A stretch of DNA of 39,456 bases from Candidatus Martarchaeota archaeon (GTDB taxonomy: Archaea; Micrarchaeota; Micrarchaeia; Micrarchaeales; Micrarchaeaceae), in the NCBI GenBank assembly GCA_023485505.1, contig JAMCZN010000011.1:1-39456 (forward strand), written 5' to 3'. Shown here piece after piece: positions 3,442 to 35,668 of the stretch. The notes beneath the pieces were generated by a model. That model searched no databases and had not been told where the DNA came from. It worked only from the letters and a program-made list of their open reading frames with translations. Position 1 is the stretch's first letter; each line of letters begins with the position of its first letter. Both the position numbers and the translations under genes were made by a program.

Positions 3442-3466
3442 GCAGGGCAAGCCGCTAAAGGATTGG

Positions 3467-7709: not shown

Positions 7710-9686
7710 TCAGACCTCCTCCTCTTCCTCTGCATCGCTGCCAGGTCTTTTCCTTCCCGTCTTTACCTTTCTGGGTGGCTTTTTCGCTCCTCCACTTACA
7801 TCGCTATTCTGTTGCTGTGCCGTGTTTGCGCCTGATGAAGATGGCTGTCGTTTTGGCCCGCTGTTTTGGTCTTGAAGGTTTTCACTGTATTTGTCGACCT
7901 GCTGTTTTACTATATAAGTGTCCTTTAGCCTTTGGTGCCTTTCGTCGCTTGATTCGCTAATATGTGCGCCATATCTTTCATTCCATTCCTCCTTCCATAT
8001 CGGTTCTCTTTCTACATTAGCGACGTTTTTCTCCCTGTTGTCCGCTTCTGTTCTTGCCCTTACATCTTTTGTGGTGCCGTGCTGCTCCCTGTAAGCGTAT
8101 GTGTCCTTAAGCCACTGTGGCGGCTCTTTCATGAAGTTTGGCACGAATCTTCCAGTGAAGAATCCTGTTTTCTCCTGCTCCTCCTTCACTTCAGGTGCCC
8201 TTGTAGGCGTGTTGGTCGCGTCCTTGCCTCTGTCCTCTTCGGCACCGGCTCCTGTCACCCTATCCTTCGCCCTTCCGGCATATGCTGCCACTACGTAAGG
8301 CGCATTGGATGCTGCGACTCCAACCTTGGCAATTCCACTTTCCATGCTTTGCAAGCCCCTCGCTGCAAGCGAGCCGAACATATAAACATCCCCAGCTAGA
8401 TCTCCCATTCCTGTGCCTTTCCAAGCTTTCTTTACGTTGGTAATTTGCTCTGGAAATGGGACATATGGTTTTTGCACTTCAGTTTTGAGCTCAGGTGCCC
8501 TTGTTGGCATATTTGATGAATTTGTTGCGTATACTGCTGTTGTGACCTGTCCTATACCTGAAGACGTTGTGTATTGCCCCCCTGAAGAGGTTGTGTATTG
8601 CCCTCCGAAAGATGTTGTGGCTTGCCCGCTGCTTGATACTGCAATCCCTGCCATTCCAAACCCTCCCGAAGTGGAAGCCATTCCATATACTGGCTGTACT
8701 ATTGTTGGATTGCTTCTGCTCGGTATGGGTGGCGGAGGTAATGATAAAGTTCCTGTCCTTTTGGCGTCTGTCACCACACTTTTTGCGTAAGCGTAAAGAG
8801 CACTGTCTGACTTATTCATAGCCTTTACTGACTGTGCTGCTGCGCCCCTTGTAAGGTGCCCTCCCGATACTACGGTGAGGATCCCGCCTATAGGCAGGAT
8901 CGGCAGACGGATTATTGGTGCCTGTTCCCATTTGCCATTTTTGAGCGTGCCATCCTCATTTAGGCCCCTGAAGTGCCTCCACTGTTGGTAATTAAGCGCA
9001 AATTTCTGCCCAATCGTTGGCTTTCCGCCGCTCTTGTAAGCATCTTCGACAGTTTTTCTTGCAGAAAGATATCTCTGTGCTGATTCGTCCGCTATCTTCG
9101 CCTTCTGCTTGGCTGTTTCATCCTTTTCTCCGACCTTTGTTGCGCGGCCTACCCTTCTGCTTTCGCTTGCCGCTGTGCGGACTCTTCCAAAGAAACTTCC
9201 AGCAACTGCTCCTCCTGCGGCAGCCCTGCCGATTGGTCTGAGTTTTCCTTCTGATTCGTCCTTTGCCATCTGCCTGAGTCCCTCTTTAGTCGGGGCATAG
9301 CCCCTGCTTTGGGCTATTGCGATTGCTTGTCCCATTGTGCCGCCCTTCCTTGCAGCGAGCTTTGATGAAATCTTTTTCGCAGCCGCTCCTGCTCCTGCCT
9401 TTATGCCCTTTTTGGTGAGGCCGCCCAGTGCGGTTGCAAACGCCGAGTTCTTTTTCATCGTCCCTGCCATCGCCTTTTGTATCTTTCCTCCCTTCAGTCC
9501 CTTCCCCGCTCCGCCAGCTCCGGCGCTTGTAATGCCGAGAAGAGTGCCTATCCCAAGGAATTGGAATATGTCCATACCGCGGCTAAGGCCGGCGGCCGCT
9601 ATTATAAGTATGAAGATTACCACTATAGGAGTGAAGTCTGCAAGCGTAGGTATTGCGGCAAGCACTATAGGTATCAGCCAGAACAT
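7710..9686 (-). CDS. Membrane-anchored, low-complexity protein with long charged tail (possible conjugation-type membrane component)
   Basis: A 658-aa protein with two or three N-terminal hydrophobic segments (about 1-16, 20-35 and 40-55), then a Gly/Ala/Lys-rich region (AGAGGAGKGLKGGK), a long mostly soluble Ala/Ser/Gln-rich part and a strongly acidic end (EEEEEV). It contains three tandem QxTTSxGG octapeptides, two PTRAPE[LV]K elements and two LKDTY elements. The start is supported by a good ribosome-binding site (GGGAGGAAT before ATG) and a TATA box further up. Two to three N-terminal helices with a long, repetitive cytoplasmic tail resemble the layout of some extended TrbL/TraG-type conjugation proteins, but no diagnostic motif is present. 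Its position beside the pilin-like genes is the main reason to link it to them. Confidence 0.72.
   Translation of the reverse strand: MFWLIPIVLAAIPTLADFTPIVVIFILIIAAAGLSRGMDIFQFLGIGTLLGITSAGAGGAGKGLKGGKIQKAMAGTMKKNSAFATALGGLTKKGIKAGAGAAAKKISSKLAARKGGTMGQAIAIAQSRGYAPTKEGLRQMAKDESEGKLRPIGRAAAGGAVAGSFFGRVRTAASESRRVGRATKVGEKDETAKQKAKIADESAQRYLSARKTVEDAYKSGGKPTIGQKFALNYQQWRHFRGLNEDGTLKNGKWEQAPIIRLPILPIGGILTVVSGGHLTRGAAAQSVKAMNKSDSALYAYAKSVVTDAKRTGTLSLPPPPIPSRSNPTIVQPVYGMASTSGGFGMAGIAVSSSGQATTSFGGQYTTSSGGQYTTSSGIGQVTTAVYATNSSNMPTRAPELKTEVQKPYVPFPEQITNVKKAWKGTGMGDLAGDVYMFGSLAARGLQSMESGIAKVGVAASNAPYVVAAYAGRAKDRVTGAGAEEDRGKDATNTPTRAPEVKEEQEKTGFFTGRFVPNFMKEPPQWLKDTYAYREQHGTTKDVRARTEADNREKNVANVEREPIWKEEWNERYGAHISESSDERHQRLKDTYIVKQQVDKYSENLQDQNSGPKRQPSSSGANTAQQQNSDVSGGAKKPPRKVKTGRKRPGSDAEEEEEV
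8557..8628 (-). repeat. Three tandem 24-bp coding repeats
   Basis: Units at 8557-8580, 8581-8604 and 8605-8628 are near-identical and in frame. They encode the octapeptide Q-[AY]-T-T-S-[FS]-G-G three times in the 658-aa protein. The two left units differ at only two or three positions, so the duplication is probably recent. Confidence 0.85.
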
Positions 9687-10618: not shown

Positions 10619-11746
10619 CTAAGTCTTTTGACCTGAAAGTTCGTTGTTAACTACGGTGGTGCATGCGCCGGCGTAAGTCGAATTGGTCAGGTAGTTGCAA
10701 TCCGCTATGCTGCTCTGGTTTATCGCAAGGTGCAATATGCAGCCGTCCTGTTCGTATGAAATGTTGAGCTGCATGCACTGTGTTACGTTGTTCTCTTGCT
10801 CTGCCTTTTTCAGGTAGTACTCGTAATAACAGTATTCCTTTGAGTAAGAACTGTAACTGCCGCATGCCGCTATCGCAGTGCTGGCGTTCAGGTCGTAGTT
10901 TGTAGATGTGACGTTCCTTTCTATTATCTGCGATTCGCAAGATGCGTTTGCGATTCCTTTTATCAGGCCGCATGTCGATATGCTGTTTGTGAGCTGCGCT
11001 ATCGTGTAATAGCAGTAGTTTTGCGGGGACACGTTGAGGGTCGCAAAGTAATAGAGGTTTGCGATTTGCATGCTGGAATTGTATCCGGTGCTCTTTGTAA
11101 GATAGTAGAGCGAGGTCTCGTTCGGAAGCGCCTGCAGAGTGCTGCATGCGCTCGCATTCCTTGCGGATAATGCACTGTGGTAGTAGTATATGGACTTGCA
11201 TTCGTTGCTGTATGAATTATTGTTGATGTCCGAGCAAGAGTACGGGTTTGAGAAATTCGTTTCAACCGAATAGTTGTATATGCAGTTAAGCTCGTCCTTT
11301 CCCGTTAGAGTGTTGCACAATTGTATGTTTTTTCCTCCAACATTCAATCCAAGCACGCATTGCGGATAGAGATAAGAGCTCTTGTTCATGGCGGTGCATA
11401 TGCTTGCGTTGTTACTTGACTGCGCAACGCTGTAAATGCAGATATCCCTGTAAGAACCCTGCAGGTATCCGCATGCGCTTACGTTTCCACTCTCCTGGGC
11501 ATACTTTGTCAAGCAAGACGACAGCTCATAAGTATAGTTGCCGCAACCACCTGGATAATCCGGCGGCTTATAAGGAAACATGTAATTGTATATCGATAAC
11601 GCTATTGCAAAAGCCACGAAAATCCCAACAACGAACACGAGCAATGCTCTCTTTTGACTCTCGTTGAGGACTATGCTGCCATATGCCTCCCTCATGGTTA
11701 TTTGCGTGCCTTTGCTCTTGTTTCCAATATCTTTTTCCGACGCCAT
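10619..11746 (-). CDS. Membrane-anchored secreted protein with about ten short Cys repeats
   Basis: A 375-aa protein: a cytosolic N-terminus of about 32 residues, one transmembrane helix at about 33-54, then an outward-facing region to the end. The ectodomain is a chain of roughly ten units of 25-30 residues with the pattern C-x2-[LIM]-x(6-10)-C-x(7-10)-N-x-[ST]-x-C, for example CGYLQGSYRDICIYSVA and CNYLTNSTYAGAC. Two units in the middle have lost a cysteine. Many N-x-[ST] sequons are present. Such Cys pairs probably stabilise a helical-hairpin solenoid by disulfides, as in other secreted archaeal repeat proteins; a binding role is likely. The gene is divergent from the first pilin-fusion gene and shares its promoter region, which suggests a link in expression. 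Confidence 0.78.
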   Translation of the reverse strand: MASEKDIGNKSKGTQITMREAYGSIVLNESQKRALLVFVVGIFVAFAIALSIYNYMFPYKPPDYPGGCGNYTYELSSCLTKYAQESGNVSACGYLQGSYRDICIYSVAQSSNNASICTAMNKSSYLYPQCVLGLNVGGKNIQLCNTLTGKDELNCIYNYSVETNFSNPYSCSDINNNSYSNECKSIYYYHSALSARNASACSTLQALPNETSLYYLTKSTGYNSSMQIANLYYFATLNVSPQNYCYYTIAQLTNSISTCGLIKGIANASCESQIIERNVTSTNYDLNASTAIAACGSYSSYSKEYCYYEYYLKKAEQENNVTQCMQLNISYEQDGCILHLAINQSSIADCNYLTNSTYAGACTTVVNNELSGQKT

Positions 11747-11835: not shown

Positions 11836-14463
11836 ATGGCAATGCTAAACTATAGGATGACTTTTGTATTTGTAGCCTTCATGCTTGCGATGTTTCTATT
11901 AATCAATAATTCATATGCGGACTACAATCAATATTATGTGCCAGGTACTCCTTGGGTGTGCGCAAACAATTATAATTGTTACACAGATTCCCCGTATGGG
12001 GTTGGAAATGTGGTGGTAAGTCCACAGGTAATCCAACCTGGAGGCACAGTGACTGTGTCTTACAATGCCGCATGCGCATATGAAGGAAGTGGAGGTAACT
12101 GCCAGCCTCAGGGGAATGGTGATGAGATTGCTCTCGAATATTGCGGTATAAATGGGCAATGTACTAATGGATTGCTCGCGGGTGCTGCTAATGGCGGCAG
12201 CTTAAACTATTGTGGCGGAGGGACTAACAACCTGGCTACTGACAATATCCAATTTACGGCAACCCCGCAACAGACAGGTCCGTGTGATGTGATTGACAAT
12301 ACCGGCGGAGTATGTGCTTCCCCTACATATTGCAAGGTTCCGGATGGCGGTTCGGCCCAGATAACGTTCTCATCCAGTACGTCCCCTGGCATATACTACT
12401 TCTGTGGTGATGAGTATGATGAGTCTGACGGAATCACTGTAGAGCAGGTATGCAACTATGTCGTAATAGGGTCAAGCCCTCCAAGTTCATACTCTTTCCC
12501 TCCTGATACGACATGCCAGGCAAACTCTGGCGTCCCAAATTGTGGCTATGCTGCTTCTGGAGGCAATCCTCCCGGTCCGCAAGTGACGTCGCACCATGGG
12601 CAAATATTCTTTACCTTGCAACCTCCAATCAGCGGTAGCGGTCCAAGGTCTCCGAACGTCTATCCTTTGGGTGTCGAATATAATTCCAGCTGTGGCGTGG
12701 GCAACAACTGCCAGCAAAATGGCTATGGCGATGCGCTAGCCCTCGAATACTGTGCCTATGGCCAAGACACGTGTGCGTATCCATGGTCGTCAGAGGCAAG
12801 TGCAGGATCAAGCACGGTGGCCATGAGCGGATGCCCTCAAACCATAACGCCAGGCACTACTTCAACATGTGATCTTGTCGATAATACCGGCAATCCATGT
12901 GGTGCTTCGGATATTTGCGACGTACAGCAGATGGTAAATGTTTCAATTGGCGTTAGTAATGCAAAGGATAATGTCGCAACGTTCTGTGCATTTACGGGAC
13001 AGTACAACTCATTTGGAGATCAGATATCCGTTTCAGAGCGAATCTGCAAATCAATAAATATAGCTACATATCCACAGGTCAATGCTATCGTGACGTCCCA
13101 GCCAACAGTAGTGGAACCCGGTACGACTTCCAACGTATTGGTGACTGTATACAACATGTATCCTTCGATGTTCGGTATGCCGGGATCGGACAATAACCTG
13201 AATAATTACGGTGCATTTACATTACAAAATAAACTTTATGTTACTGGTGGAATTGGCTCTGTTTCATCACCGCCACAATCATGTCCTTTTGTTATGCCCA
13301 CAACAACCAAATGCAATGATGCCGCGCTAACTGGCGCTATAGGTTGGCCGTCAGATAGCCAGGGATGTTATTCACAGTTCCCCATAAACGGAAGCTCAAT
13401 ATCGCAAGACAAGGCCGGAAACCTATATTTGGGTGAGACGTTCTGCGCATCTGGGGGCACAGCATGCAGCATTTTCAACTTTACTACCTGGGCATATGGC
13501 GATGGTCAGGAACAAAACGTATGCATATATTATTCAATGAATCAGAATCCTAGCTATGCGACGCTAATAGGCAACGGGATAATTACGGCAAACCAGTTTG
13601 CCGACAGCTATGGTCTTACTATAGACGCATATCCGCATAGTTGGGACCTTGGAAATGCTACTGACTTGATGATGAAGACAGTATATGGCGTACATTACAT
13701 CACGCCGACAGTAAATCCTGTCGAGCAGACGGGCATATGTTATCCACAATCTGCATTTTCACAGTCCATCCCGAGCGGGGATCCGTGGCCGATTTGCACA
13801 ATAATTTTCGAAGGCAGCAGCACGAATGGCTGCGTTTTTGGTCATTCCATACAAACAGAATGTGCCACTCCTCCAACGCTTAATGCACCGTGCAATCTTA
13901 CCTCTCTAAAAGTAGATTACAATAACTCCGGGGGCAACAATACATTCCAGGAATATCTCAACACTGCATACATGCCGGATGGCACGTACACGTTGTGCGG
14001 GTTCGAGCTGATGCCGAATCCATGGTTAGACAGCAATGGAGCGTACTACGTACCTTTCTTCTCGAGAGCCACGCTCGAATGCCAGGGTGGGTTATGTACT
14101 GTGTACCCTGCAACCCAGCAGTTCGTTACGCTCCCGTGCACAGACTGCAATATCGGCAATGGTGGTGGGAGCATAACAAACCCGCAAATAACCATAGGAT
14201 CTTTCCAGCAGATAGTATGTAATATCTACAACCAGATGAACATAATCTTCTTCATATTCGCGCTGGTGCTTATGCTGCTTGGAGCTATACTCTATATGGG
14301 CGCGTCGGCTGTTCCCGGAGAGGGCCGCGGGACTCTGCGCGGATACGGCATGGGATTCATAATAGTCGGTATTGTAGCTACCGTGATAGCGATGGTTGGG
14401 TTCTTTATACTTGCAGAGATGGGAAGCACCACTGTGCAAAGCGTGATAGCATGTGCGCCGTGA
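11836..14463 (+). CDS. Giant secreted Cys-rich protein with C-terminal VirB2/TrbC-like pilin hairpin (paralog 1)
   Basis: From ATG 11836 (or 11842) the protein has 875 aa; the frame is open further upstream, but that part overlaps the divergent gene and is unlikely to be coding. A signal peptide (VFVAFMLAMFLLINNSYA) is followed by about 770 outward-facing residues rich in Cys, Asn, Gly and Thr. Two copies of a Cys module (about 58-215 and 252-410) share [AV]LEYC, CD[VL][IV]DNTG and a later FC...C pattern; later parts contain GTYTLCGFEL. The last 84 residues form two helices: CNIYNQ, helix, GAILYMGASAVPGEGRGT loop, helix, and a final Cys (VIACAP). This hairpin is shared with four neighbours. 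The call of a pilin-like domain rests on this architecture and on the context. Confidence 0.8.
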   Translation: MAMLNYRMTFVFVAFMLAMFLLINNSYADYNQYYVPGTPWVCANNYNCYTDSPYGVGNVVVSPQVIQPGGTVTVSYNAACAYEGSGGNCQPQGNGDEIALEYCGINGQCTNGLLAGAANGGSLNYCGGGTNNLATDNIQFTATPQQTGPCDVIDNTGGVCASPTYCKVPDGGSAQITFSSSTSPGIYYFCGDEYDESDGITVEQVCNYVVIGSSPPSSYSFPPDTTCQANSGVPNCGYAASGGNPPGPQVTSHHGQIFFTLQPPISGSGPRSPNVYPLGVEYNSSCGVGNNCQQNGYGDALALEYCAYGQDTCAYPWSSEASAGSSTVAMSGCPQTITPGTTSTCDLVDNTGNPCGASDICDVQQMVNVSIGVSNAKDNVATFCAFTGQYNSFGDQISVSERICKSINIATYPQVNAIVTSQPTVVEPGTTSNVLVTVYNMYPSMFGMPGSDNNLNNYGAFTLQNKLYVTGGIGSVSSPPQSCPFVMPTTTKCNDAALTGAIGWPSDSQGCYSQFPINGSSISQDKAGNLYLGETFCASGGTACSIFNFTTWAYGDGQEQNVCIYYSMNQNPSYATLIGNGIITANQFADSYGLTIDAYPHSWDLGNATDLMMKTVYGVHYITPTVNPVEQTGICYPQSAFSQSIPSGDPWPICTIIFEGSSTNGCVFGHSIQTECATPPTLNAPCNLTSLKVDYNNSGGNNTFQEYLNTAYMPDGTYTLCGFELMPNPWLDSNGAYYVPFFSRATLECQGGLCTVYPATQQFVTLPCTDCNIGNGGGSITNPQITIGSFQQIVCNIYNQMNIIFFIFALVLMLLGAILYMGASAVPGEGRGTLRGYGMGFIIVGIVATVIAMVGFFILAEMGSTTVQSVIACAP

Positions 14464-14467
14464 TTGT

Positions 14468-15991
14468 ATGAGGATAAGTTTTGTTGTATATCTAGCGGTT
14501 ATCTTTTCGGTATTTGTATTTCTTCAATTTGCAAACGCCAATTCATTCAGTGGCTCTATAGTGGTAAACCAACCGGAAGTGCTTTCAGGGGCTGTAGACT
14601 CGTATACTTTGTCTACCTCTCAGTCTGGCGGACTTGCCGATTGGTCGTTAGGGGGCGTATGCAATACTGGAAACAACTGGGGCGGCATACAGTGGACCGA
14701 TGCCCAATGCCCGTACGCTATATTTTGGACGGAAAATGTCGTATCATGCGCGCAGGCGCTTTCGAAATGGGATTATAACTTCAATCCATCAGCTATGGGT
14801 AGCTGCAATAATAACGTATGCAATAATAATAATAATTTCAACACCGGGAGCGGATATTTAACAGGTTTTTCATATGGTGATGGTGGCTATCTGCCTTGGT
14901 GCGGACAAAATGAAAACACCGCAAATGGCAATGACTGCATTGTCGCTGCTGGCACTTGTACATCAGGCGGTTCATGTTCTATACAAAACTACACGCTTGG
15001 CGTTGAGCAGCCCACTGGCACATTTGGATTGTGTTATATTATGGATGTACCTTCCGCTAGCTGGTCATCGTGCTGCTCAGACAACTTCTATTATTCGAAC
15101 ACCCCGTACTTATACACGGTAGCCAACTTTGTTGCTCCTTTCGGCTCTCTCACTCTCTCGTTGTCAAACACACCTGCTCCATCCACCTATCTGCCATATG
15201 TTACCGTTTACAACAACGCGCCACTCTATGTTGACGTTAGCAGCTCCGACACCAGCTCCGGCCCGGTATGGCTTGAGTTTTCCAATACTGTGCTTTCACC
15301 GTCGCTGCAGGCAAATGGGGCTGGATCAAACTACTGCACAAATCCGACTCCTTATGATGGAAATGGCGGATTTTTAAACATTCAACAGTGTCCAAGCCAA
15401 TTAAGCGCCAGTACTCCAACGTGCCTTTTGGGCGGTGGCGAAGGGACAAGCGTAACGTGGCCATTTTGTAATAACAATCCGAGCGGTGGGATATGCCAGG
15501 CGACTTCATCACCAGGTGCTTATGATACTGGCTGGATATCTTTCAACACCGTGGGCTTGCCTGGACAGGCGGAATATGAGCTATGTGCTTACCAAGGAAA
15601 TCCAGGACAGGAGCAGTACTTTACATACCAGATATTTTCATTGCTTTGCGGAATAACCGGTTGTGAGTCATTAAGCAATGTGGGCGGTTCTCCGATACTT
15701 GTTGGATCAATACAGGGAACGGCATGCACTACCTATTATGACGTTAGCCTGTTCCTTGTTCTGCTTGCGCTCACATTTGCATTGATAGGCGGCGCCCTAT
15801 ACGGAGGGGCTTCTATGCTGCCAGGTCAGACTAGGGGCAATATCAGAGGAGTGGCAATGGGCCTCATATATACGGGGATAGCGGGGCTCCTGCTAGCATT
15901 GCTGTCGATGTGGGTGTTGAGCTTTGTCACCGGCATACCCATACAAACCATACTGAGCCAGAACGGCTGTGCGCAAACGGGACTGACATGA
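14468..15991 (+). CDS. Secreted Cys-rich protein with C-terminal VirB2/TrbC-like pilin hairpin (paralog 2)
   Basis: A 507-aa protein from ATG 14468; an upstream in-frame GTG at 14453 overlaps the previous gene. The CCGTGATTGT before the ATG holds both the previous stop and a GTGAT ribosome-binding site, so the two genes are coupled. A signal peptide ends near NANS. The ectodomain (about 30-415) is rich in Cys/Asn/Gly, has a Trp/Cys-rich N-terminal part and Ig-like strands ending in GTFGLCYIMD and AEYELCAYQG. The C-terminal about 90 residues have Cys (GTACTTYYD), helix 1, GGALYGGASMLPGQTRGN loop, helix 2 and a last Cys (QNGCAQ). The role is probably a minor, ectodomain-bearing pilus or envelope subunit; this is inference. 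Confidence 0.8.
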   Translation: MRISFVVYLAVIFSVFVFLQFANANSFSGSIVVNQPEVLSGAVDSYTLSTSQSGGLADWSLGGVCNTGNNWGGIQWTDAQCPYAIFWTENVVSCAQALSKWDYNFNPSAMGSCNNNVCNNNNNFNTGSGYLTGFSYGDGGYLPWCGQNENTANGNDCIVAAGTCTSGGSCSIQNYTLGVEQPTGTFGLCYIMDVPSASWSSCCSDNFYYSNTPYLYTVANFVAPFGSLTLSLSNTPAPSTYLPYVTVYNNAPLYVDVSSSDTSSGPVWLEFSNTVLSPSLQANGAGSNYCTNPTPYDGNGGFLNIQQCPSQLSASTPTCLLGGGEGTSVTWPFCNNNPSGGICQATSSPGAYDTGWISFNTVGLPGQAEYELCAYQGNPGQEQYFTYQIFSLLCGITGCESLSNVGGSPILVGSIQGTACTTYYDVSLFLVLLALTFALIGGALYGGASMLPGQTRGNIRGVAMGLIYTGIAGLLLALLSMWVLSFVTGIPIQTILSQNGCAQTGLT

Positions 15992-16002
15992 TATTCAGAA
16001 AG

Positions 16003-16013
16003 GTTTAATTTAT
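16003..16013 (+). promoter_or_regulatory. TATA-like element upstream of pilin-fusion paralog 3
   Basis: GTTTAATTTAT is preceded by a purine-rich GAAAG that could act as BRE. The predicted start lies near 16038, leaving about 30 nt of leader with GTGGTAAAG before the ATG at 16070. Confidence 0.45.
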
Positions 16014-16069
16014 TTGTTGATGATTAAATAAGGTCGTAAAAATAGTCAATGTTTTAAGTGGTAAAGTTT

Positions 16070-19000
16070 ATGAACGCAAAAGGCTTTGCTAAAATTGGTT
16101 TGCTTGCATCATTCCTGTTCATGGCACTAATAATGGCACATGCAAACATATCCGGAGCCCAGTACTGCGATTATCAAGAGGGCGGGAATTCCGGCAGTTT
16201 GGTCAATGGCCAGCTCCAGCAGGCCGCAAGCACTACGTGTCCTGGCGGATATTTTTCATCTCCAGGAACGGTGACGCTTTCAGCGAGCGATACAACAGGT
16301 CAGTCGGATGGTTCATCTACATCTCCGATACTGATGGTATGGCATCCAAGCGACACGTATTCGATAGATTCCAGCTATTCGTCTGGCTGCGGTTCAAGCA
16401 ATAGCTGCTGGACCGATCCGACTCCAAATAGCAATCCTGCCGTTTCAGACTTTTTGACTCTTGAATACTGCGGTCCAAAGCAGCAGTGCAATGAGGCTAC
16501 CGGCGGTTACTACTCAGGTGCGGGTTGGGCTTACTGTGGCAATGGTCCATCAGGTTCGAGTTGTTCTAATGGCAACTCCGGCCAAGGCTATGACTATGGC
16601 AATGGATGCGGGGGTGCCGGTGGTGGCGGTGGCAGTACTGGTGGAGGTAGCTGTATTGTTGATAACACCTGCCCTGGCATAAATGCCGATCCAAATGTCC
16701 CATACAATAATATCGCATCTGGAGCTGGCGGCTGGAACTTTAACCCCGTTCAGAATACAGGTACTCTTCAAATACAGTGCACGATGTCTACTAACGAGTT
16801 CTTTCCGTGTGGCGGACAGGGTTCATGTACTACACCTGGCAGAAATACAGATATCCTCATAATGAATGATCCTCCGCCCGGCACGTACAGCTTCTGCGGG
16901 ACAACATATGGTCCAAATAATAATCAACTGAACTCTGGTTCCGGATTGAGCATATTGGAGACAGTTTGCAACTATGTGGCCATATATCCTCAGTCATGGA
17001 TAAACGCCATGCCGCCGACTACGTTTGTCATGGGAGCCAATGTGCTGCCTCCTGGCGCTTCTACTTATATCAATTATACAATCCCGTTGCAACCTGGAGA
17101 GCCAATGTGTCCAATATCATACATAATGATTGCGCCTCCAGGAAAGCCATGCAATCCGACATTTTCAATTCCAGGATACGCCGAAACGACCTCTAACCCT
17201 GCAGCATATTGCAACGAAAACTCGACAAACGCTCCGGGATATGGATGGCTTTGCAGTGGCGGCACCGGCACAGGAGGAAGCGGCAGTTGTGGCGGTACGA
17301 CAATGGTAGGCACAGGCCCTGCATGGCCACAATGCCTTTTGAACTACAACAACGAAAGCAACCCATGGGGGGACAACTATGATATTTATAACAGCGCAGG
17401 GAACGCTGGCCAGGAGCCATGGGTGGACAATACCCTTACGGATGAATGCCAGTACTCGTATTTCATGAGCACAAACTCCGTACCATTGCTGCAGGGCAAT
17501 TATACAGTATGTGCGTTCTACAAGTTCCCTGGCTCGGCAACCACATTCAGCACCCAGACGCAATTGAATGTCACTGGAAACGTACAGAATGGCCCAGGTT
17601 ATGGGTATTACCTGTATTTTGCTAATCAAAACGGGCAGCAGATTGGCGCAGGGAGCACTTTCAGCACAAGCTCACCTATAAGCGTGGATGGACAGCAGTG
17701 GCCGACAGGGCCGTTTAGCCCGTCCTCTTATCAGGCGACGTTTAATCCTGGGAGCAATCCACCTCCATTATCATGCAGTGTAAATTACATGGATTATATG
17801 GGCACATCTCCAGACGTGTGCCTGTATGAAATTGCTGCCAATACTCCCACAGGGGGCTGCATACCTCCTTTAACTTCCGCATGGCCATATGACTCATTTT
17901 ACTCCAGTGGTGCGGTCTATACTACGACACTTCCAATATGTAACAGCCCGCTAACGTCTCTTCCATGCCTCGTATACAACAGTCAGGCCAGCCCGTCTCC
18001 ATCAACCGACAACTATGCTCTTGCAGATTTGGGGACCGTTTCGATATCAGGAAGCACATTCGTGCCTAGCAACAGCTATGACATATGTGCCTATGACTAT
18101 AACACATACTTCTATCCCGGCACCTATCAGAATTGCAACCCAAACAATCCAACGTCATCATGCCAGGCTGTTGAGCCGGCTGGTAATGGTCAGCCAGGAG
18201 AAAACATAGCTCCTCTTGGTTCACCTACCGGCAGCAACCAAAACGGCGGAGGCAACGCTGGTCCAAATGCGGATGCTCCTCTCCTTGACAATCCTACCGA
18301 GGCCAGCCCCTTCTTTGCAACTGCCAGCGTAACATGCAACAGCATCGGGACATGTACTGTCGGCGGCCAGTATCAGGCAGGACCTTTCATCTTATACGGC
18401 AGCACCGCATATTTCGGAGCGCCATTTGGGACATTTAACGTGATACCGTCGGTGGTCTCCCTTGGCAACAGTCCGCCATCGTCAGTAACCATAATTGCAA
18501 ATGCGTATGATGTGGGCTTTACTACATCAAGCAGTTCATCACAGACTTCGGCAAACCTATACACATACATAGTGCCATTCGGCAAAACTCCATTTGTCAC
18601 TATCAAGGATGCATGCACGGGGCTCACACAGTCTATAAAAAACCAGTGCAGCAATAGCAATGGCGACTTCCAAAATGGCTGTTACGTAGAGTACCAAGGT
18701 CAAACCGGCAACAACAACGGAGGCGCGTCTTCTTCGAATGGATGTACTGTTGATACGTCTGGTTATCCCGGCACTAGCTGCACAGCTGCCACGACTCTAG
18801 TTCCTGGCTGCTATTCCGGTTCATCGTCTTCAAGCGGCTGCAACCAGAATCCAATGTCAACAGAAATAATAACCACTATGAGCCCATCCATTTCATCCAC
18901 AACACCTGCAAACACATATCTGCTCTGCGATATGCTTACGGAAGGAGGATCCGCCCCTGAGTACGTGGCTGGAGCTTTCCTGTTCATACTTCCTGCAGGG

Positions 19001-19315
19001 CAAACCTACTCCCCGTCAAACCTTGGCGAAGCATCAAGCTCCCCATTCACGGGTGAGGTTTGCAGTGTCTATTATGCGATAGAGTCCGTGTTCATAATCG
19101 TTACGCTTGTAATAATGCTCATAGGCGCTGGGATGTATGCATTCTCGCATGTGCTTCCGGGCACCGCAAGGGGGCCTATACAGAGCTACGCATTCGGGAT
19201 GTTCATAGCCGGCGTAGTTGGAGTGGCTCTTGGGGTCGCTGCAATATACATAATATCTTTGGTCACAAACACGGCCATAAGCCCAAGCGCAATATGTAAT
19301 ATGCAAGTGTCCTGA
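16070..19315 (+). CDS. Giant secreted Cys-rich protein with C-terminal pilin hairpin (paralog 3)
   Basis: The largest protein of the window, 1081 aa from ATG 16070; an in-frame GTG lies at 16058. GTGGTAAAG is the likely ribosome-binding site for the ATG. A signal peptide (IGLLASFLFMALIMAHA) is followed by an ectodomain of about 970 residues with long Gly/Ser/Asn-rich linkers. It contains the Cys module with LEYCG and CIVDNTC, and several beta domains each ending in a G-x-Y-x-[FVIL]-C strand (GTYSFCGTTYG, GNYTVCAFYK, NSYDICAYDY, NTYLLCDMLT). The last 85 residues hold EVCSVYYAI, helix, MYAFSHVLPGTARGP loop, helix and a final Cys (SAICNM). The hairpin is more diverged than in its neighbours (Gly replaced by Phe-Ser before His). 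A stalk-like adhesin on a pilin base is the favoured reading. Confidence 0.8.
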   Translation: MNAKGFAKIGLLASFLFMALIMAHANISGAQYCDYQEGGNSGSLVNGQLQQAASTTCPGGYFSSPGTVTLSASDTTGQSDGSSTSPILMVWHPSDTYSIDSSYSSGCGSSNSCWTDPTPNSNPAVSDFLTLEYCGPKQQCNEATGGYYSGAGWAYCGNGPSGSSCSNGNSGQGYDYGNGCGGAGGGGGSTGGGSCIVDNTCPGINADPNVPYNNIASGAGGWNFNPVQNTGTLQIQCTMSTNEFFPCGGQGSCTTPGRNTDILIMNDPPPGTYSFCGTTYGPNNNQLNSGSGLSILETVCNYVAIYPQSWINAMPPTTFVMGANVLPPGASTYINYTIPLQPGEPMCPISYIMIAPPGKPCNPTFSIPGYAETTSNPAAYCNENSTNAPGYGWLCSGGTGTGGSGSCGGTTMVGTGPAWPQCLLNYNNESNPWGDNYDIYNSAGNAGQEPWVDNTLTDECQYSYFMSTNSVPLLQGNYTVCAFYKFPGSATTFSTQTQLNVTGNVQNGPGYGYYLYFANQNGQQIGAGSTFSTSSPISVDGQQWPTGPFSPSSYQATFNPGSNPPPLSCSVNYMDYMGTSPDVCLYEIAANTPTGGCIPPLTSAWPYDSFYSSGAVYTTTLPICNSPLTSLPCLVYNSQASPSPSTDNYALADLGTVSISGSTFVPSNSYDICAYDYNTYFYPGTYQNCNPNNPTSSCQAVEPAGNGQPGENIAPLGSPTGSNQNGGGNAGPNADAPLLDNPTEASPFFATASVTCNSIGTCTVGGQYQAGPFILYGSTAYFGAPFGTFNVIPSVVSLGNSPPSSVTIIANAYDVGFTTSSSSSQTSANLYTYIVPFGKTPFVTIKDACTGLTQSIKNQCSNSNGDFQNGCYVEYQGQTGNNNGGASSSNGCTVDTSGYPGTSCTAATTLVPGCYSGSSSSSGCNQNPMSTEIITTMSPSISSTTPANTYLLCDMLTEGGSAPEYVAGAFLFILPAGQTYSPSNLGEASSSPFTGEVCSVYYAIESVFIIVTLVIMLIGAGMYAFSHVLPGTARGPIQSYAFGMFIAGVVGVALGVAAIYIISLVTNTAISPSAICNMQVS

Positions 19316-19360
19316 TTTTAGGACTTTTTAAACATATAAAAATATACCCATGCCTAAAGG

Positions 19361-19377
19361 TTAAATATAAATATAAG
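19361..19377 (+). promoter_or_regulatory. TATA-like element upstream of pilin-fusion paralog 4
   Basis: TTAAATATAAATATAAG is preceded by AAAGG. It is 44-60 nt before the TTG start at 19421. The predicted transcription start near 19395 leaves a leader with GGTGTG as ribosome-binding site. Confidence 0.45.
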
Positions 19378-19420
19378 TAAGATATTAGCAATACTATAAG
19401 TTAAACGCTGGTGTGTTAGT

Positions 19421-21142
19421 TTGTATAATACGAGGTTTGTGCTGCTGCTTTCAGTGCTGTTTGTCTTCATGTTTATCAAAATAGGGGCAGCAACTGGTCC
19501 TTCGATTACTTTTGCACCAACAGCAATATTACCTAGCAGCGCCTCTGCACCTGCCATTTCAAGCATAACTCCATCGTCCACGCAAGCAGGTCATGGAATC
19601 TTCAGTTATTCAGTCACTGCTGCTAGCGGTGATAATGTTAGGATATTTTACTGGGTAACCTCCTCTCAGCCGTCTTCAGGAACCGCACCACCTTCAGGAA
19701 CGTGGTACTGCACTGATTCAGGTTGCGATGGCGGCACTTATCCTATACCGAGTTCTGGCACTGCTACACTTACGGATTGCCTGCCTTTTAGCGCTTTCCC
19801 AGGTGGAAGCGTATATGTAGGTATTGAAGATTTGAATACCGGTCAATACGGGAATTGGGAATTGGTGACTTTGGAAACCGGCAACAGCGGCACATGGCAA
19901 AACTACTGCCCCTTTATTGCTGGTATCGGCATTCCAGGCGGTGTCGCCAATCCTCCAACTGTATCGCTTCCAAGCCCTCCTCCCTCCTCTATAACTGTTG
20001 ATATAAATGGCGAGCCTGGCGATTCTGTCGCTGTTTTCGAATGCCAGTCAAATCCTGGCGATGGATCTGCAGCCGGATCGGCATGTGCCTCTGTTGACAC
20101 TGGTTCGTTGGGTTCTGCTAGTCAGGGAGGTGGCGCTGAAATCAACATTCCAGTTCCAAGCTGCAGCACGTTCTATGTTGGCGTAGAGGATACATACATT
20201 AATACATGGACAAATTGGGTGCAGGTGAACAACCCAGGTGCAAGCGGCACATGCAACATTGGTGGTGCAAGTGGAGGCGGACCTGGCTGTTTTGGCACAG
20301 TATGCACGGGCAACCAGCAAACATCATCCATAGATATGACCGCATCAGCAGGGTGCGGTTCGTCAGACAATTGTAATATTAATATGGATGTCGTAGCGTT
20401 TGAATACTGCGGCAACAGTGGAACCGGCGGCTGCACGGATCCAGGCTTTTCATGCACATCTACTGGCGGTTCGGCACCTCCAATTACATGCACATATACC
20501 ATTCCGCAATGCAACGGTGGCGGATTTATAGGTGGTCCGCAAGATGGCAGCGGAACCGGGTCCTTCGATCCTGGCTCTATAACCAATGCGCCATGCATGG
20601 TTGATGATAATAGTCAGTATCCATGCGGAGGAAATGCTTATTGCGATGCGCCAAACTATGACCAATCAAACCCACCGCCAGCCAGCACTGCAATGGCAAC
20701 TGCCACGTTTGGAAGCAGTGATAGCGGCACCTATGGATTCTGCGAATACGACTATTCATATAGTGAATTAAAGACAATAGACAATGGCTGCATAACACTT
20801 CAAGTGTCTGGAGGCGCCTTGCAGGGGCCTCCTGGTGGTGGTCCATCGTGCCCTCCTGGTTCAACGTGTACTCCTTCCCAGCAGGTCACAGCGGCGATAT
20901 GCGGTGTCTATTTTGACGTCAATACTATAGTGTTCATACTTGCGCTTACTCTTATGATTCTCGGAGGTGCAATATACGGAGGCGCTCATATACTTCCAGG
21001 CCAGACCCGCGGTCAAGTCCAAGCTTATGCGATGGGTCTGATACTCGGGGGAGTGGCTGGAGCCGTAATAGCCCTGCTGGCTCCATGGATACTTGGCATG
21101 ATCTATGCGCAATCCGCTTCAATAATAGCGGCCACCTGCTGA
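19421..21142 (+). CDS. Secreted Cys-rich protein with C-terminal pilin hairpin (paralog 4)
   Basis: A 573-aa protein with a TTG start at 19421, supported by GGTGTG about 8 nt upstream and by the signal peptide that follows directly (FVLLLSVLFVFMFIKIGAA). Residues about 50-155 and 175-275 are two copies of a beta domain ending in [SF]-x-YVG[IV]EDxx...W.NW..V. Residues about 310-465 hold the shared Cys module (VVAFEYCG, CMVDDNS, GTYGFCEYDY). The last 85 residues are AAICGVYFD, helix 1, GGAIYGGAHILPGQTRGQ loop, AYAMG, helix 2 and a terminal Cys as last residue. The hairpin is very close to that of the free 129-aa pilin-like protein, so the two may assemble together. Confidence 0.82.
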   Translation: MYNTRFVLLLSVLFVFMFIKIGAATGPSITFAPTAILPSSASAPAISSITPSSTQAGHGIFSYSVTAASGDNVRIFYWVTSSQPSSGTAPPSGTWYCTDSGCDGGTYPIPSSGTATLTDCLPFSAFPGGSVYVGIEDLNTGQYGNWELVTLETGNSGTWQNYCPFIAGIGIPGGVANPPTVSLPSPPPSSITVDINGEPGDSVAVFECQSNPGDGSAAGSACASVDTGSLGSASQGGGAEINIPVPSCSTFYVGVEDTYINTWTNWVQVNNPGASGTCNIGGASGGGPGCFGTVCTGNQQTSSIDMTASAGCGSSDNCNINMDVVAFEYCGNSGTGGCTDPGFSCTSTGGSAPPITCTYTIPQCNGGGFIGGPQDGSGTGSFDPGSITNAPCMVDDNSQYPCGGNAYCDAPNYDQSNPPPASTAMATATFGSSDSGTYGFCEYDYSYSELKTIDNGCITLQVSGGALQGPPGGGPSCPPGSTCTPSQQVTAAICGVYFDVNTIVFILALTLMILGGAIYGGAHILPGQTRGQVQAYAMGLILGGVAGAVIALLAPWILGMIYAQSASIIAATC

Positions 21143-21182
21143 CGCTTTTTCTACCTTTTATCACTTTCGCAAAATCCCTCAA

Positions 21183-21192
21183 ACATTTAAAG
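21183..21192 (+). promoter_or_regulatory. TATA-like element upstream of the 153-aa membrane protein gene
   Basis: ACATTTAAAG lies 29-38 nt before the ATG at 21221, and a GGTGG ribosome-binding site follows at about 21212-21216. The predicted start is close to this site, so the leader must be very short. A T-rich stretch at 21145-21161 just before it could end the previous transcript. Confidence 0.4.
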
Positions 21193-21220
21193 GTATCTAT
21201 CTATAGATAATGGTGGTTAG

Positions 21221-21682
21221 ATGGCAAAAGCAAAAGCTAACAGGAACAAGGGCTTTATGGATGTGCTGAAATATCCGTTGTCGCTATGGGTAATATTCCT
21301 AGTTGTAGGGTTCATAGTAGGTTTCTCGGCGTTCTACTCCATTAGCATAGACGTGATGTTCGGCAACGTGGCTCTTTTATTCGCATTGCTGTTTGGGATA
21401 TGGATCGGGAGAAGATCAAGCAAGCGCTTCGATTACATGTGGATGAGCCTTGCTTCCGCTCTCATGCTTATAGTGATTATAGGCATAGTCACCATAATAC
21501 TCGCTTCGGTGCTTGCCGCATATTCGCAGAGCTTCTCGGCGTACCTTTCACCGTACACTACTCCAACAAGCTCCCCTGTAGCGGTGGTGCTAAACGCAAG
21601 CATAAACATGTGGATAGAGATAGCGATGGTAATGCTTGTAAGCGCGGCACTCGCATTCGAATTTTCGAGCTCAAAGCAATAA
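21221..21682 (+). CDS. Small polytopic membrane protein, 153 aa, four helices
   Basis: A basic N-terminus (AKAKANRNKG) is followed by four hydrophobic helices at about 20-40, 45-62, 74-98 and 125-146. Between helices 2 and 3 lies a basic loop (GRRSSKRFDY), and between 3 and 4 a Ser/Thr/Pro-rich outside loop with one sequon. The GGTGGTTAG before the ATG is a good ribosome-binding site. There is no Cys and no known motif. It stands between two genes with pilin-like hairpins and could be a membrane platform or chaperone for them, in the way VirB3 or similar small proteins act, but the sequence does not prove it. Confidence 0.72.
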   Translation: MAKAKANRNKGFMDVLKYPLSLWVIFLVVGFIVGFSAFYSISIDVMFGNVALLFALLFGIWIGRRSSKRFDYMWMSLASALMLIVIIGIVTIILASVLAAYSQSFSAYLSPYTTPTSSPVAVVLNASINMWIEIAMVMLVSAALAFEFSSSKQ

Positions 21683-21696
21683 GCGACTTGTTATTT

Positions 21697-21713
21697 GGCT
21701 GGAATTTCCAGCC
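21697..21713 (+). terminator. Hairpin after the 153-aa protein gene
   Basis: GGCTGGAATTTCCAGCC is a perfect 7-bp stem with a 3-nt loop, 15 nt after the stop codon, followed by GTTATATTTATAG. It could end the transcript or shape the region upstream of the next promoter. No strong T run follows it, so the terminator role is uncertain. Confidence 0.4.
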
Positions 21714-21755
21714 GTTATATTTATAGCATGGGTTAGCTTCCGCTAAAAGCGATAA

Positions 21756-21766
21756 GTATTTAAATC
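21756..21766 (+). promoter_or_regulatory. TATA box of the free pilin gene
   Basis: GTATTTAAATC is preceded by AAAAGCGATAA, a plausible BRE. The predicted start lies near 21788, leaving a 14-nt leader that includes the GTGG ribosome-binding site before ATG 21802. This is the best-looking archaeal promoter in the region. Confidence 0.55.
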
Positions 21767-21801
21767 ACATTGATATATTGTATAGCGACAAAGTGGTTTA
21801 A

Positions 21802-22191
21802 ATGGAGAACCTAATATACAGATTGATTTCGAAGAGCGGATACTTCAGGATAGTGTTCGCGCTATTGGCAGCTATAGGCATGTTTTCGACAATTGCTTCA
21901 GCATCGTCAGCAAGCACATGTGCAAACGTCGTTACTTCTATATCTAACATATACCAAGACGTATACACGACAATATTCATACTAGGACTGTTGCTCATGA
22001 TACTAGGAGGCGCGCTATATGCTGGTGCCCACATAATGCCTGGTTCAACAAAAGGTTCGTTGCAGGGATATGGCATGGGAATGATAATTGGCGGCGTGAT
22101 TGGTGTAGTAATAGCACTATTGGCCCCATACATATTGCAGTTGATAACGGGAGCTCCGGTATCAGTAGGCAATACAGCAGGTTGCGTTTGA
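21802..22191 (+). CDS. VirB2/TrbC-like pilin candidate, 129 aa
   Basis: A signal peptide of about 35 residues (RIVFALLAAIGMFSTIASA) is followed by a short mature protein of about 93 residues. The mature part has Cys40 before helix 1 (TIFILGLLLMILGGALYAG), the short loop AHIMPGSTKGSLQGYGMG with a single Lys, helix 2 (MIIGGVIGVVIALLAPYIL) and Cys128 near the end. This length and helix-loop-helix form match VirB2/TrbC pilins and the CedA1-like pilins of archaea. The same hairpin forms the C-terminus of four large proteins just upstream. It has its own promoter and a U-rich terminator, as expected for an abundant subunit. The function as the main pilus subunit is inferred. Confidence 0.78.
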   Translation: MENLIYRLISKSGYFRIVFALLAAIGMFSTIASASSASTCANVVTSISNIYQDVYTTIFILGLLLMILGGALYAGAHIMPGSTKGSLQGYGMGMIIGGVIGVVIALLAPYILQLITGAPVSVGNTAGCV

Positions 22192-22203
22192 TTTTCAGCA
22201 ACC

Positions 22204-22238
22204 TTTTCTTTTTCTTTTGTTTTTCATCATCTTTTTAG
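22204..22238 (+). terminator. U-rich archaeal-type terminator after the pilin gene
   Basis: This stretch is almost all T and C with five runs of four or five T (TTTTCTTTTTCTTTTG and following), starting about 13 nt after the stop. Archaeal RNA polymerase stops at such T tracts without a hairpin. It would separate the pilin transcript from the next gene. Confidence 0.65.
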
Positions 22239-22290
22239 CTTTTGCTCTTGATAACTACGTGTTAATAATGAGCACCTGCAAAGTGAGAAC

Positions 22291-23022
22291 ATGGCAAATA
22301 TAATAGAGTACTCGATGGAGGTGTATACAAAGCACATAACTCTTATACTGCTCTTCTCGCTGGCATTCATAATAGCGTTTGCCATACCCATATTCGCATC
22401 GTTTCCAACGTTCAACGACATGGGCGGCATATTCCTGAGGATACCTAGCACGTTCACCAACCTCAACGCATTCACTGCAGGGGTGATTGTCGTGGCTACC
22501 GTATTCTCGCTTCTCTTCTTGAGCTTTGCGATAGCGGCGATAAGCCTTATAGTAAAGCACAGCAGGACCGCTACCAGAATGAAGAAAGAGGTCATAAACG
22601 GGCTCGAGAAGCACACCTCAAGGGTGTTTGTCGTGCTGCTCCTATACACGGCCATACTCGAGTTCCTAAGCATAGCCGCATACGCGTATGGCATAACCCA
22701 GGTAATCCCTTCAGTAATAGGGCTTTTGATCACCCCTTTCTTCTTTTATGCGCCAGCCTCCATAGTCATAGACGAAAAGGGGGTTATAAGAGCCATGCAG
22801 CTCAGCGCAAAGGTATTCGTCAAGAACTTCCAGTATGTGCTTTTGCTCCTTTTTTCTGGAATAGTCGCGCTTACGGTATTTGACTTCATCTTTATCCTGA
22901 TAGGCGGGACCATGCTGTCAAGCTACCTGATGCTGATATTCACATCAATAATCATAATGCCTTTCTTCGTTGTTCTGCAGTGCGAAGCCTACATGAGAAG
23001 GTTCGCCCTATTGAGGCGCTGA
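22291..23022 (+). CDS. Polytopic membrane protein, YciC/GPDPase-membrane-domain-like, six helices
   Basis: A 243-aa protein with about six helices. The segment FFFYAPASIVIDEKGVIRAMQLSAKVFVKNFQY, quoted here in part as its key features, has the order hydrophobic helix, P-A-x-I-V-I-[DE]-x-K-G-V-x-x-A-[ML], followed by an amphipathic stretch. This is the hallmark of membrane proteins related to the YciC / glycerophosphodiester-phosphodiesterase membrane domain. These have no proven enzymatic role here. GTGAGAAC before the ATG is a good ribosome-binding site. It lies between the pilin gene and the VirB6-like array, so it might help membrane assembly of the machine, but relatives occur widely without such partners. 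Confidence 0.7.
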   Translation: MANIIEYSMEVYTKHITLILLFSLAFIIAFAIPIFASFPTFNDMGGIFLRIPSTFTNLNAFTAGVIVVATVFSLLFLSFAIAAISLIVKHSRTATRMKKEVINGLEKHTSRVFVVLLLYTAILEFLSIAAYAYGITQVIPSVIGLLITPFFFYAPASIVIDEKGVIRAMQLSAKVFVKNFQYVLLLLFSGIVALTVFDFIFILIGGTMLSSYLMLIFTSIIIMPFFVVLQCEAYMRRFALLRR

Positions 23023-23060
23023 ATCCATCATTTTACAACGTAAAAACCGTCAAAGAAAGC

Positions 23061-23070
23061 ATTATAAATC
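23061..23070 (+). promoter_or_regulatory. TATA-like element at the head of the VirB6-like array
   Basis: ATTATAAATC is centred 26-27 nt before the ATG at 23092, so the transcript could be leaderless. From here seven to nine genes follow with very short gaps until 30786, which suggests a long operon. Confidence 0.5.
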
Positions 23071-23091
23071 TCATTATACTTAACGGTTACT

Positions 23092-24399
23092 ATGTCCATA
23101 AGGGTGCGTCTGGGTTTATTAGCAGTGGCATTGCTTGTTCTGTTCCAATTATCCTATGTAAGCGGCGCAACCAACCTTAACTTCTATTGTGTGACTAATG
23201 GCAATACCTATCCCAATCCTACCGATTCGCAGATAGCTAATTGTTTCAATTCATCTATTAACTACGTGATAATTGGGCTTCTGGTCTCTTTTATGATGGT
23301 TGCGCTCTCTTATCTGATTGGAGAAGTGATAAACATCGCCTCGTTTAAGAACTGGTACAGGAACGAGCTCTGGGAAACGATAAAGACCGTGATCATCGTT
23401 ATTGCGATATTCTCCGCTGTCAGCGTTGTTGGCACGCTTGGCACATCGCAGGCTTATCAGATCGGCCCTTCCTGTTCCGGAGGATCCGGTACTGGCCTTT
23501 CGGGCTCTGGCATAGCTTCATTGTACGTAGAAGCGTCAAGCTACCTGAGCAACTGCGCTTTCTGGAATGCGGATTCGGCATACGGGGCCGCGCTTGGCGT
23601 GTCTGTTGGTAGCGGCCTGGTAAAATCAATGACCCTGATGACTTATTTCACAATTCCATTTCCACCTGTTCCGATACCTGCTCCTCCTCCTGCTACTGGT
23701 TATGTGCCCGTATTTGGGAGCTTCAATATCGGAACGGATTTGACTCCATTCTCAAGCGACATACTCCAAACGAGCATAACAAAAGGCCCGTCTTTTCTCA
23801 AGGACTATATGGGCATATTCACGTTCCCGTTGCTGCTAGTGGTGGCGACTATCAATGCGCTGATTTATCCGCTCGGTGCGCTTTGCCTCGGAATACTGCT
23901 TCCACTGGGGGTGATATTTAGGGCATTGCCGTTTCTGCGGCCGATAGGCGCGTCGCTGATAGCGTTATCAATAGCTGGTGCAGTTATATTTCCAGCGGTG
24001 CTGGTTTTCTTCAACATCCCGCTATCTGTATACATGGGTTCATTAAGTCCGGGATTCACTCCGCCGCAATCATCGTGCAATGCGTTTGGCTCCGTGTGCA
24101 GCTCCATGAATTCACAGGGTGGCAGCTCCGTTACCCAGCAATACACAGGAAGCACTCTTGGCCTTGATGCTGCTGAAAGCAACGCGTATAACTGGGGTTC
24201 CAGTGCTGGAGGGGCCGTATACTTCAACAGCGATTTCTCTCCGGTGCTGAATCTGTTGCTGCTGTATGGCGTGCCGTCTGCGCTGCAGTTCCTGTTGCTT
24301 GTGATCGACTTGGTGATAGGGATAATCGCAGCGCAAAACCTGGCAAGGCTTATGGGCGGCAGTCTGAGGTTTGGAATAGGAAAGATGAAACTTACGTGA
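23092..24399 (+). CDS. VirB6/TrbL-like polytopic membrane protein (paralog 1 of 6)
   Basis: A 435-aa protein with a signal-type first helix (LLAVALLVLFQLSYVSG), a Cys pair in the first outside part (Cys33, Cys51), helix 2 ending in LSYLIGEVINIASF, then the cytosolic N-W-Y-R-N-E-L-W-E-T and helix 3. A long outside loop (about 120-240) holds Pro-rich sequence (PPVPIPAPPP). The family signature lies at 273-305: GVIFRALPFLRPIGASLIAL followed by IFPAVLV. Two or three helices complete the C-terminus. Shape and signature agree with the VirB6/TrbL group (CedA-like in archaea), which forms the inner-membrane base of conjugation machines. Sequence identity to bacterial VirB6 is expected to be very low, so the call rests on shape and neighbours. 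Confidence 0.7.
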   Translation: MSIRVRLGLLAVALLVLFQLSYVSGATNLNFYCVTNGNTYPNPTDSQIANCFNSSINYVIIGLLVSFMMVALSYLIGEVINIASFKNWYRNELWETIKTVIIVIAIFSAVSVVGTLGTSQAYQIGPSCSGGSGTGLSGSGIASLYVEASSYLSNCAFWNADSAYGAALGVSVGSGLVKSMTLMTYFTIPFPPVPIPAPPPATGYVPVFGSFNIGTDLTPFSSDILQTSITKGPSFLKDYMGIFTFPLLLVVATINALIYPLGALCLGILLPLGVIFRALPFLRPIGASLIALSIAGAVIFPAVLVFFNIPLSVYMGSLSPGFTPPQSSCNAFGSVCSSMNSQGGSSVTQQYTGSTLGLDAAESNAYNWGSSAGGAVYFNSDFSPVLNLLLLYGVPSALQFLLLVIDLVIGIIAAQNLARLMGGSLRFGIGKMKLT

Positions 24400-24405
24400 T
24401 GAAAA

Positions 24406-25638: not shown

Positions 25639-25654
25639 TTTAAACAGTGAAAAA

Positions 25655-28344: not shown

Positions 28345-28350
28345 TGTTTT

Positions 28351-29511: not shown

Positions 29512-29529
29512 ATTACGTGCGATACTTGG

Positions 29530-30786: not shown

Positions 30787-30813
30787 TTAAAGAGCTCTTG
30801 TCATTCCAAGATG

Positions 30814-30822
30814 CTTATAAAG
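30814..30822 (+). promoter_or_regulatory. TATA-like element upstream of the VirB4-like gene group
   Basis: CTTATAAAG is followed by a T-rich stretch. A start about 26 nt downstream would lie near 30842, which coincides with the first possible TTG start at 30840. It could drive the genes from 30867 to 34104 separately from the VirB6-like array. Confidence 0.45.
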
Positions 30823-30866
30823 TTTTTCATTCATAAATATTGGGGTCGATTGGTTTGGAAGTAAAA

Positions 30867-32521: not shown

Positions 32522-32533
32522 CAAGTGATATTT

Positions 32534-34104: not shown

Positions 34105-34128
34105 ATATGCCGTATATAAACTGATAAA

Positions 34129-34437: not shown

Positions 34438-34470
34438 CTTTGATGCTGTAATGTTTTTACTAGTGATACG

Positions 34471-34881: not shown

Positions 34882-34883
34882 CA

Positions 34884-35667: not shown

Positions 35668-35668
35668 C

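Follow-up and report, generated by a model that had tools for sequence, protein, structure and literature searches.

What kind of surface structure would be built from four giant secreted proteins and one small protein that are encoded side by side and all end in the same helical hairpin? The question is raised by a 39,456-base stretch of archaeal DNA (47.6% G+C), here called the window, which is contig C20 of a 0.75-Mb genome (73% complete). The nearest named relatives of this genome are Candidatus Micrarchaeota, mostly metagenome-assembled and in several cases labelled phylum Microcaldota at NCBI; the source archaeon is tiny and probably host-dependent. A preliminary description of the window had proposed that a VirB2/TrbC-type pilin hairpin serves as the base for very large adhesin-like domains. 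The answer we favour, and consider rather probable, is a domesticated chromosomal contact machine derived from a type IV secretion system (T4SS), with pilin-based display of adhesin-like heads.

A VirB2-like hairpin shared by five genes

The hairpin-ended open reading frames are collinear on the forward strand and encode four fusion proteins, FUS1 (11836-14463, 875 amino acids [aa]), FUS2 (14453-15991, 512 aa), FUS3 (16058-19315, 1085 aa) and FUS4 (19421-21142, 573 aa), followed by a free pilin (21802-22191, 129 aa). With the 129-aa protein as query against its own genome, the other four C-termini were found at E = 6e-25, 3e-16, 3e-15 and 8e-15, far beyond chance, and an alignment of the five hairpins (A1) has ten invariant columns across ~105 residues; the sharing of a C-terminal hairpin by five genes is thus confirmed. 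Two more family members are encoded elsewhere in the genome, on contigs C37 (193 aa) and C29 (132 aa, divergent). A long motif beginning GG-A-x-Y, previously assigned to all five proteins, is complete in the free pilin and in FUS4 and not in the other three; the core common to all is the shorter G-x3-Y-x6-PG-x3-G, with G..G in helix 2 and a Cys near the C-terminus.

The structural model of the free pilin is a helical hairpin (helices 38-78 and 83-116) that makes up nearly the whole mature protein; in the four fusions this hairpin follows ectodomains whose sizes agree with the range of about 390-970 residues given earlier. Each fusion begins with a putative Sec-type signal segment and ends in two transmembrane (TM) helices. 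Between them lies an ectodomain of ~760 aa in FUS1, where it is Cys-rich (hairpin at DNA positions ~14170-14457), ~390 aa in FUS2 (~15647-15973), ~960 aa in FUS3 (~18998-19303) and ~450 aa in FUS4 (~20837-21139). Hydrophobic N-terminal segments are seen on the pilin-type proteins, with A-x-A-like sites judged by eye. Most genes of the block (19421-36000) have a GTG/GGTGA-like ribosome site just 5' of them, and because of a GGTGA-like site FUS3 probably starts at 16070 instead of 16058.

Is the hairpin that of a VirB2 pilin? Compared directly, the window pilin matches Pfam TrbC at E = 4.3e-5 (24.1 bits, below the curated cut-off of 27.9) and T4SS_pilin at E = 0.004 (17.6 bits, below the cut-off of 26.6). 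TrbC was matched by 10 of 31 aligned relatives, the best at 3.7e-6, and not by a reversed copy of the pilin, a control of one sequence. The TrbC match alone is insufficient, since at a loose threshold TrbC finds matches in 12 of 14 control genomes. The pilin profile matched none of the sequences of solved structures, and the profile comparison with TrbC that had been suggested, run with hhalign against plasmid TrbC/TrwL, was negative.

The link comes instead through a second, minimal locus on contig C29 of the same genome (C29:4161-7533, L057), found also in ten relatives (L094-L103). It encodes a pilin of 120-134 aa (more in cases of an uncertain start codon), a protein in the VirB6 position, a two-TM protein resembling a VirB4 N-terminal domain (NTD), and a HerA/VirB4 ATPase. 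One of these pilins, L095, passes the curated T4SS_pilin cut-off (E 4.8e-7; 30.2 versus 26.6 bits), and the minimal-locus pilin aligns with the window pilin profile at E 2e-8 (hhalign; controls at probability 0.3 or lower). The VirB6-position protein matches six window paralogs, B6a-f, at E 3e-11 to 1e-20; the two-TM protein matches window proteins of 282 and 277 aa at E 3e-13 and 2e-17; and the ATPase matches that of the window at E 2e-44 and TrbE/VirB4 at E 4e-10. Because each of the four minimal-locus proteins matches a window counterpart, the window locus reads as a part-by-part multiplied minimal T4SS-like system, with five pilins, six VirB6-like proteins, two NTD-like proteins and one ATPase. 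Judged by sequence, then, the hairpin is a VirB2-like pilin by way of a second pilin family of the same lineage, and both this bridge to T4SS_pilin and the T4SS-like gene set support the original proposal. We say VirB2-like rather than member of a curated family since the window pilin falls below the cut-offs while the homologous bridge pilin passes. That the hairpin could be an unrelated two-helix anchor, VirB2-like by composition only, is very improbable: the sub-threshold TrbC matches and the negative comparison with plasmid TrbC/TrwL speak for it, whereas a bridge family above the T4SS_pilin cut-off and the correspondence of the whole gene set to a VirB2/VirB6/VirB4-like locus speak against it.

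Type IV pili are present in Micrarchaeota, with two systems in Mia14 (PMC5498576). That the five proteins could be large-headed prepilins of the type IV pilus or archaellum kind is scarcely credible and was rejected on anatomy: a Sec-type signal segment together with two TM helices at the C-terminus differs from the single N-terminal helix of a prepilin, and the ATPase is of the HerA/VirB4 kind, with no T2SSE match in Pfam.

Heads, slots and polypilins

The composition of the proteins gives their probable topology. Across 90 hairpins the loop holds 12 lysine, arginine or histidine residues (K/R/H) per 100 residues, and the outer flanks 0.2-0.5 K/R. Over 12,197 extracellular residues from 18 fusions of six species, K+R amounts to 0.98% and Cys to 4.2%, against 10-14% K+R in window cytoplasmic proteins. 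The fusion ectodomains of the window are extremely short of K/R (1 in 372 residues for FUS2) with ~5% Cys, while other secreted window proteins have 3-4% K+R. Because the loop is basic while the flanks and ectodomains are poor in K/R, both hairpin ends most likely lie outside and the basic loop in the cytoplasm, a predicted arrangement that fits a pilin of VirB2 type, able to bear domains on its outer ends. The claim that the large domains are secreted is likewise supported.

A search for the same fusions in other archaea had been suggested; made within this phylum, it found them in sister genomes. Six species (that of the window, G002, G004, G006, G012 and G013) have ordered FUS1-FUS2-FUS3 slots together with a FUS4 slot and free pilins. 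In a tree of the hairpins, which has few columns and many open forks, the FUS1 hairpins of the six species form one group (92/84) and most of those of FUS2, FUS3 and FUS4 group by slot. The slot proteins are 472-1284 aa long, and their ectodomains are only slightly more identical to one another than shuffled sequence is; because lengths vary and identity is near the shuffled level, the heads appear to evolve fast while the slots persist. The ordered slots, on this evidence, would be a set maintained under selection. Frames of at least 400 aa with strong hairpins are nearly confined to one genus, the exception seen being G025. In sister species the hairpin can also lie in mid-protein, with 466-745 residues after it.

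The FUS4 slot is changeable, holding a short pilin, a fusion or a polypilin according to species. A polypilin of G001 (L038:3241-5586) has seven hairpins per chain, 31-64% identical, its 5' end lost at an assembly gap; one of G013 (L049:6313-8211) has four, 38-51% identical. Since the units have diverged from each other, these chains are unlikely to be assembly errors, and they apparently originated separately within the slot. Mutual packing of hairpins would make sense of them, and to that extent they give a hint of it.

Three window fusions have a Cys-rich module in common, and a ~120-aa module is found in ten fusions from five species, FUS3 included; neither matched a Pfam family. Named domains come from sister species, where pilin fusions contain InlB B-repeats (6.5e-11) and Ig_7/SprB (8.8e-8), and VirB6-like proteins contain Ig/SprB/PKD (5.9e-17) and Big_3_5 (1.4e-30). 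Domains of these kinds are typically found in extracellular adhesins or stalks; they favour a predicted role in adhesion without proving it. Enlarged VirB6-like proteins of 793-1045 aa were seen at L051:285-2816, L077:11283-13739, L077:15391-18528 and L039:2257-4638, with Ig/SprB/Big_3_5 domains in three.

The main rival to filament display is that the FUS1-FUS3 hairpins are now anchors only: pilin paralogs would have been captured as membrane anchors, leaving the fusions as ordinary surface proteins outside any filament. We consider this unlikely, though it would account for the divergent branches on which the FUS1-FUS3 hairpins stand away from the free pilins, and for the concern that a VirB2-type lattice might become too crowded if its major subunits bore ectodomains. 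Against it, the fusions are kept inside the T4SS-like cluster in six species, their hairpins retain the Gly/Pro-Gly/basic-loop pilin core, needless for a mere anchor, and the FUS4 slot switches among short pilin, fusion and polypilin.

Partner genes and neighbourhood

The five hairpin genes do occupy 11836-22191, the extent first given for the locus, and the machine itself runs on downstream to ~38279; VirB6-like, NTD-like and HerA/VirB4 ATPase partners there support its assignment to a T4SS-like locus. The genes 3' of the pilins lie on the same forward strand with short gaps or overlaps. The free pilin is preceded by a gene for a 153-aa four-TM membrane protein (21221-21682), whose slot is conserved in several sister species and which has no family match, and followed by one for a 243-aa polytopic membrane protein (22291-23022), which adjoins the pilin in the relatives examined and weakly matches the BPSS1780 family (E=2.8e-4). 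Then come the VirB6-like proteins B6a (23092-24399, polytopic), B6b (24406-25638), B6c (25655-27241), B6d (27238-28344), B6e (28351-29511) and B6f (29530-30786), all mutually homologous (hhalign E 1e-8 to 1e-20) and homologous also to the minimal-locus protein in the VirB6 position. None matched TrwI or TrbL, and a Foldseek search with the B6b model gave no match by fold. The N-terminus of B6b resembles the pilin hairpin (hhalign E=3e-5; E=1.8e-8 with the pilin hidden Markov model on the L054 ortholog). This repeats a known feature, as the N-terminus of CedA resembles CedA1 and VirB6 likewise resembles VirB2 (PMC9905601).

The 282-aa two-TM protein (30840-31688) is a candidate for a separate VirB4-NTD module, matching the 253-aa minimal-locus protein (E=3e-13). 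Its 277-aa two-TM paralog (31688-32521; E=2e-5 between the two) matches the minimal-locus protein at E=2.4e-17. The 500-aa ATPase (32602-34104) is of the HerA/VirB4 clade and has no TM segment (Pfam HerA 5e-19; NCBIfam CedD 4.5e-20, CedB 2e-18, and VirB4 models). Conserved associated genes fill 34129-38279 and encode proteins of 102, 136, 241 (coiled coil, possible winged helix) and 816 aa (two TM segments, secreted domain), in the same order in L044.

Might these parts form no extended pilus at all? The hairpins could make a short ring or collar round a VirB6-like membrane pore, the fused domains forming a crown for cell contact. Six VirB6-like paralogs and five pilins do suggest a hetero-oligomeric ring, and sister VirB6-like proteins too bear Ig-type domains; relatives that combine these partners with one or two short pilins, by contrast, resemble the filament-forming Ced and Ted systems (PMC9905601), and we regard the ring as improbable.

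The pilin is encoded in 82 of 97 genomes sampled across the phylum, on chromosomes, and relatives have a syntenic block of pilin, 243-aa protein, B6a-f, 282-aa and 277-aa proteins and ATPase. Relaxase PF03432, the relaxase class searched for, was absent from all 21 genomes searched, that of the window included. Because of this distribution, synteny and lack of PF03432, we take the window system to be chromosomal and probably domesticated. A tblastn search against plasmids gave no match, and promoter and terminator scans found no signals above chance level.

Several neighbours deserve mention. A basic protein of 658 aa, its N-terminus TM (7710-9686, reverse strand), may be part of the machine; a related stretch lies within the pilin-VirB6 block of L052 (10436-11632). 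A 375-aa secreted Cys-repeat protein (10619-11746, reverse strand), lacking a Pfam match, is oriented divergently to the fusion genes. A carbamoyltransferase gene and two glycosyltransferase genes, one PMT_2-like and one of family 2 (2746-6903), lie beside the pilin block, as they do in many relatives, and their products may glycosylate the heads at the cell surface. At its other end the block is bordered by the C-terminal part, with the transducer domain, of topoisomerase VI subunit B (38296-39450, reverse strand).

A proposed conjugation-type machine for cell contact

In the contact machine that we propose, the small VirB2-like pilins would be exported by Sec and then kept in the membrane as hairpins of two helices, the basic loop cytoplasmic and both ends outside. 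The HerA/VirB4-like ATPase would then extract them onto the VirB6-like platform, where they would polymerise, so that a filament grows from free pilin. In the paralogous pilins of this genus the hairpin would be the docking part, and the large disulfide-rich ectodomain before it (in sister species also after it) the displayed head. The fusions would most likely be minor subunits, at the tip, spaced along the filament, or at the base, and a partner cell would be recognised and held by their heads. What the computation yields is hairpin fusion, cross-species orthology, topology signals and T4SS-type partners; from these we infer co-assembly, placement within the filament, attachment to a host and transported cargo. 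The fuller picture, in which free pilins, giant-headed pilins and some polypilins form a hetero-polymeric VirB2-type filament or ring, with hairpins as lattice and fused domains as heads, and which would be the modular conjugation-type pilus by which a DPANN archaeon recognises and taps its host, is more tentative, and we place it a little short of an even balance.

Several results weigh against display on a filament. The window pilin stays below the Pfam cut-offs and aligns with neither plasmid TrbC nor TrwL; Foldseek found no significant match for the models of the pilin monomer or B6b, a search that is uninformative for helical hairpins; the window ectodomains match no named adhesin family in Pfam; and the FUS1-FUS3 hairpins are more diverged than the free pilins in the tree, which could mean that co-polymerisation has been lost.

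Among known systems, Ced and Ted of Crenarchaea, whose CedA1/TedC pilins form filaments (PMC9905601), come closest: they are chromosomal and have a short VirB2-like pilin, a HerA/VirB4-clade ATPase (CedD and CedB are the best models for that of the window), a VirB6-like channel with pilin-like N-terminus, and split VirB4 parts (PMC9905601, PMC11868833). The window differs in having five pilins, four of them with ectodomains of 390-970 residues; its VirB6-like paralogs number six, its two NTD-like proteins are separate and its ATPase lacks TM segments, and no giant ectodomain fused to a pilin is described for Ced/Ted in the partial text of those papers. The T4SSs of Patescibacteria likewise belong to ultrasmall host-dependent organisms, are chromosomal and mostly without relaxase (PMC12102498; PMC12857230), and have arrays of diverged VirB2-like pilin genes near a VirB4-like gene (PMC12102498). 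These are described as pilin sets with mean 25% identity, and the available portions of both papers report neither giant ectodomain fusions nor single-chain polypilins. The VirB5/TrbJ pilus-tip adhesin and PrgB-type adhesins (PMC12857230) are similarly proposed to recognise partner cells from the tip or surface of a conjugation machine, but are separate proteins, whereas the window head is covalently part of the pilin. The extended VirB6 proteins of Rickettsiales (PMC12857230, PMC7648143) offer several VirB6 paralogs and large hydrophilic domains on T4SS membrane subunits, a likeness seen in the sister species with Ig-type domains on VirB6-like proteins; the large domains of this genus, by contrast, sit on pilins. 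No description of VirB2-like pilins fused to large ectodomains, or of polypilins, was found in the literature searched, whose coverage mostly excludes subscription papers and preprints.

VirB2 arrays near VirB4, VirB2-like archaeal pili and extended VirB6 were thus already known; new is a pilus machine of conjugation type whose five pilin genes include four with very large secreted domains, so that the machine which would build the filament may also display on it different heads for cell recognition. These genes suggest that VirB2-type pilins, so far described as short, can carry heads of up to almost 1000 residues and can be linked as single-chain polypilins, which offer a natural route to solving hairpin-hairpin packing. 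Thin filaments and tubes to hosts have been seen by microscopy in related DPANN archaea (PMC11329633, PMC5498576), none of them tied to this locus. For the host contacts of DPANN archaea, where such tubes and pili-like links are seen without known genes, the locus names a testable, phylum-wide candidate machine.

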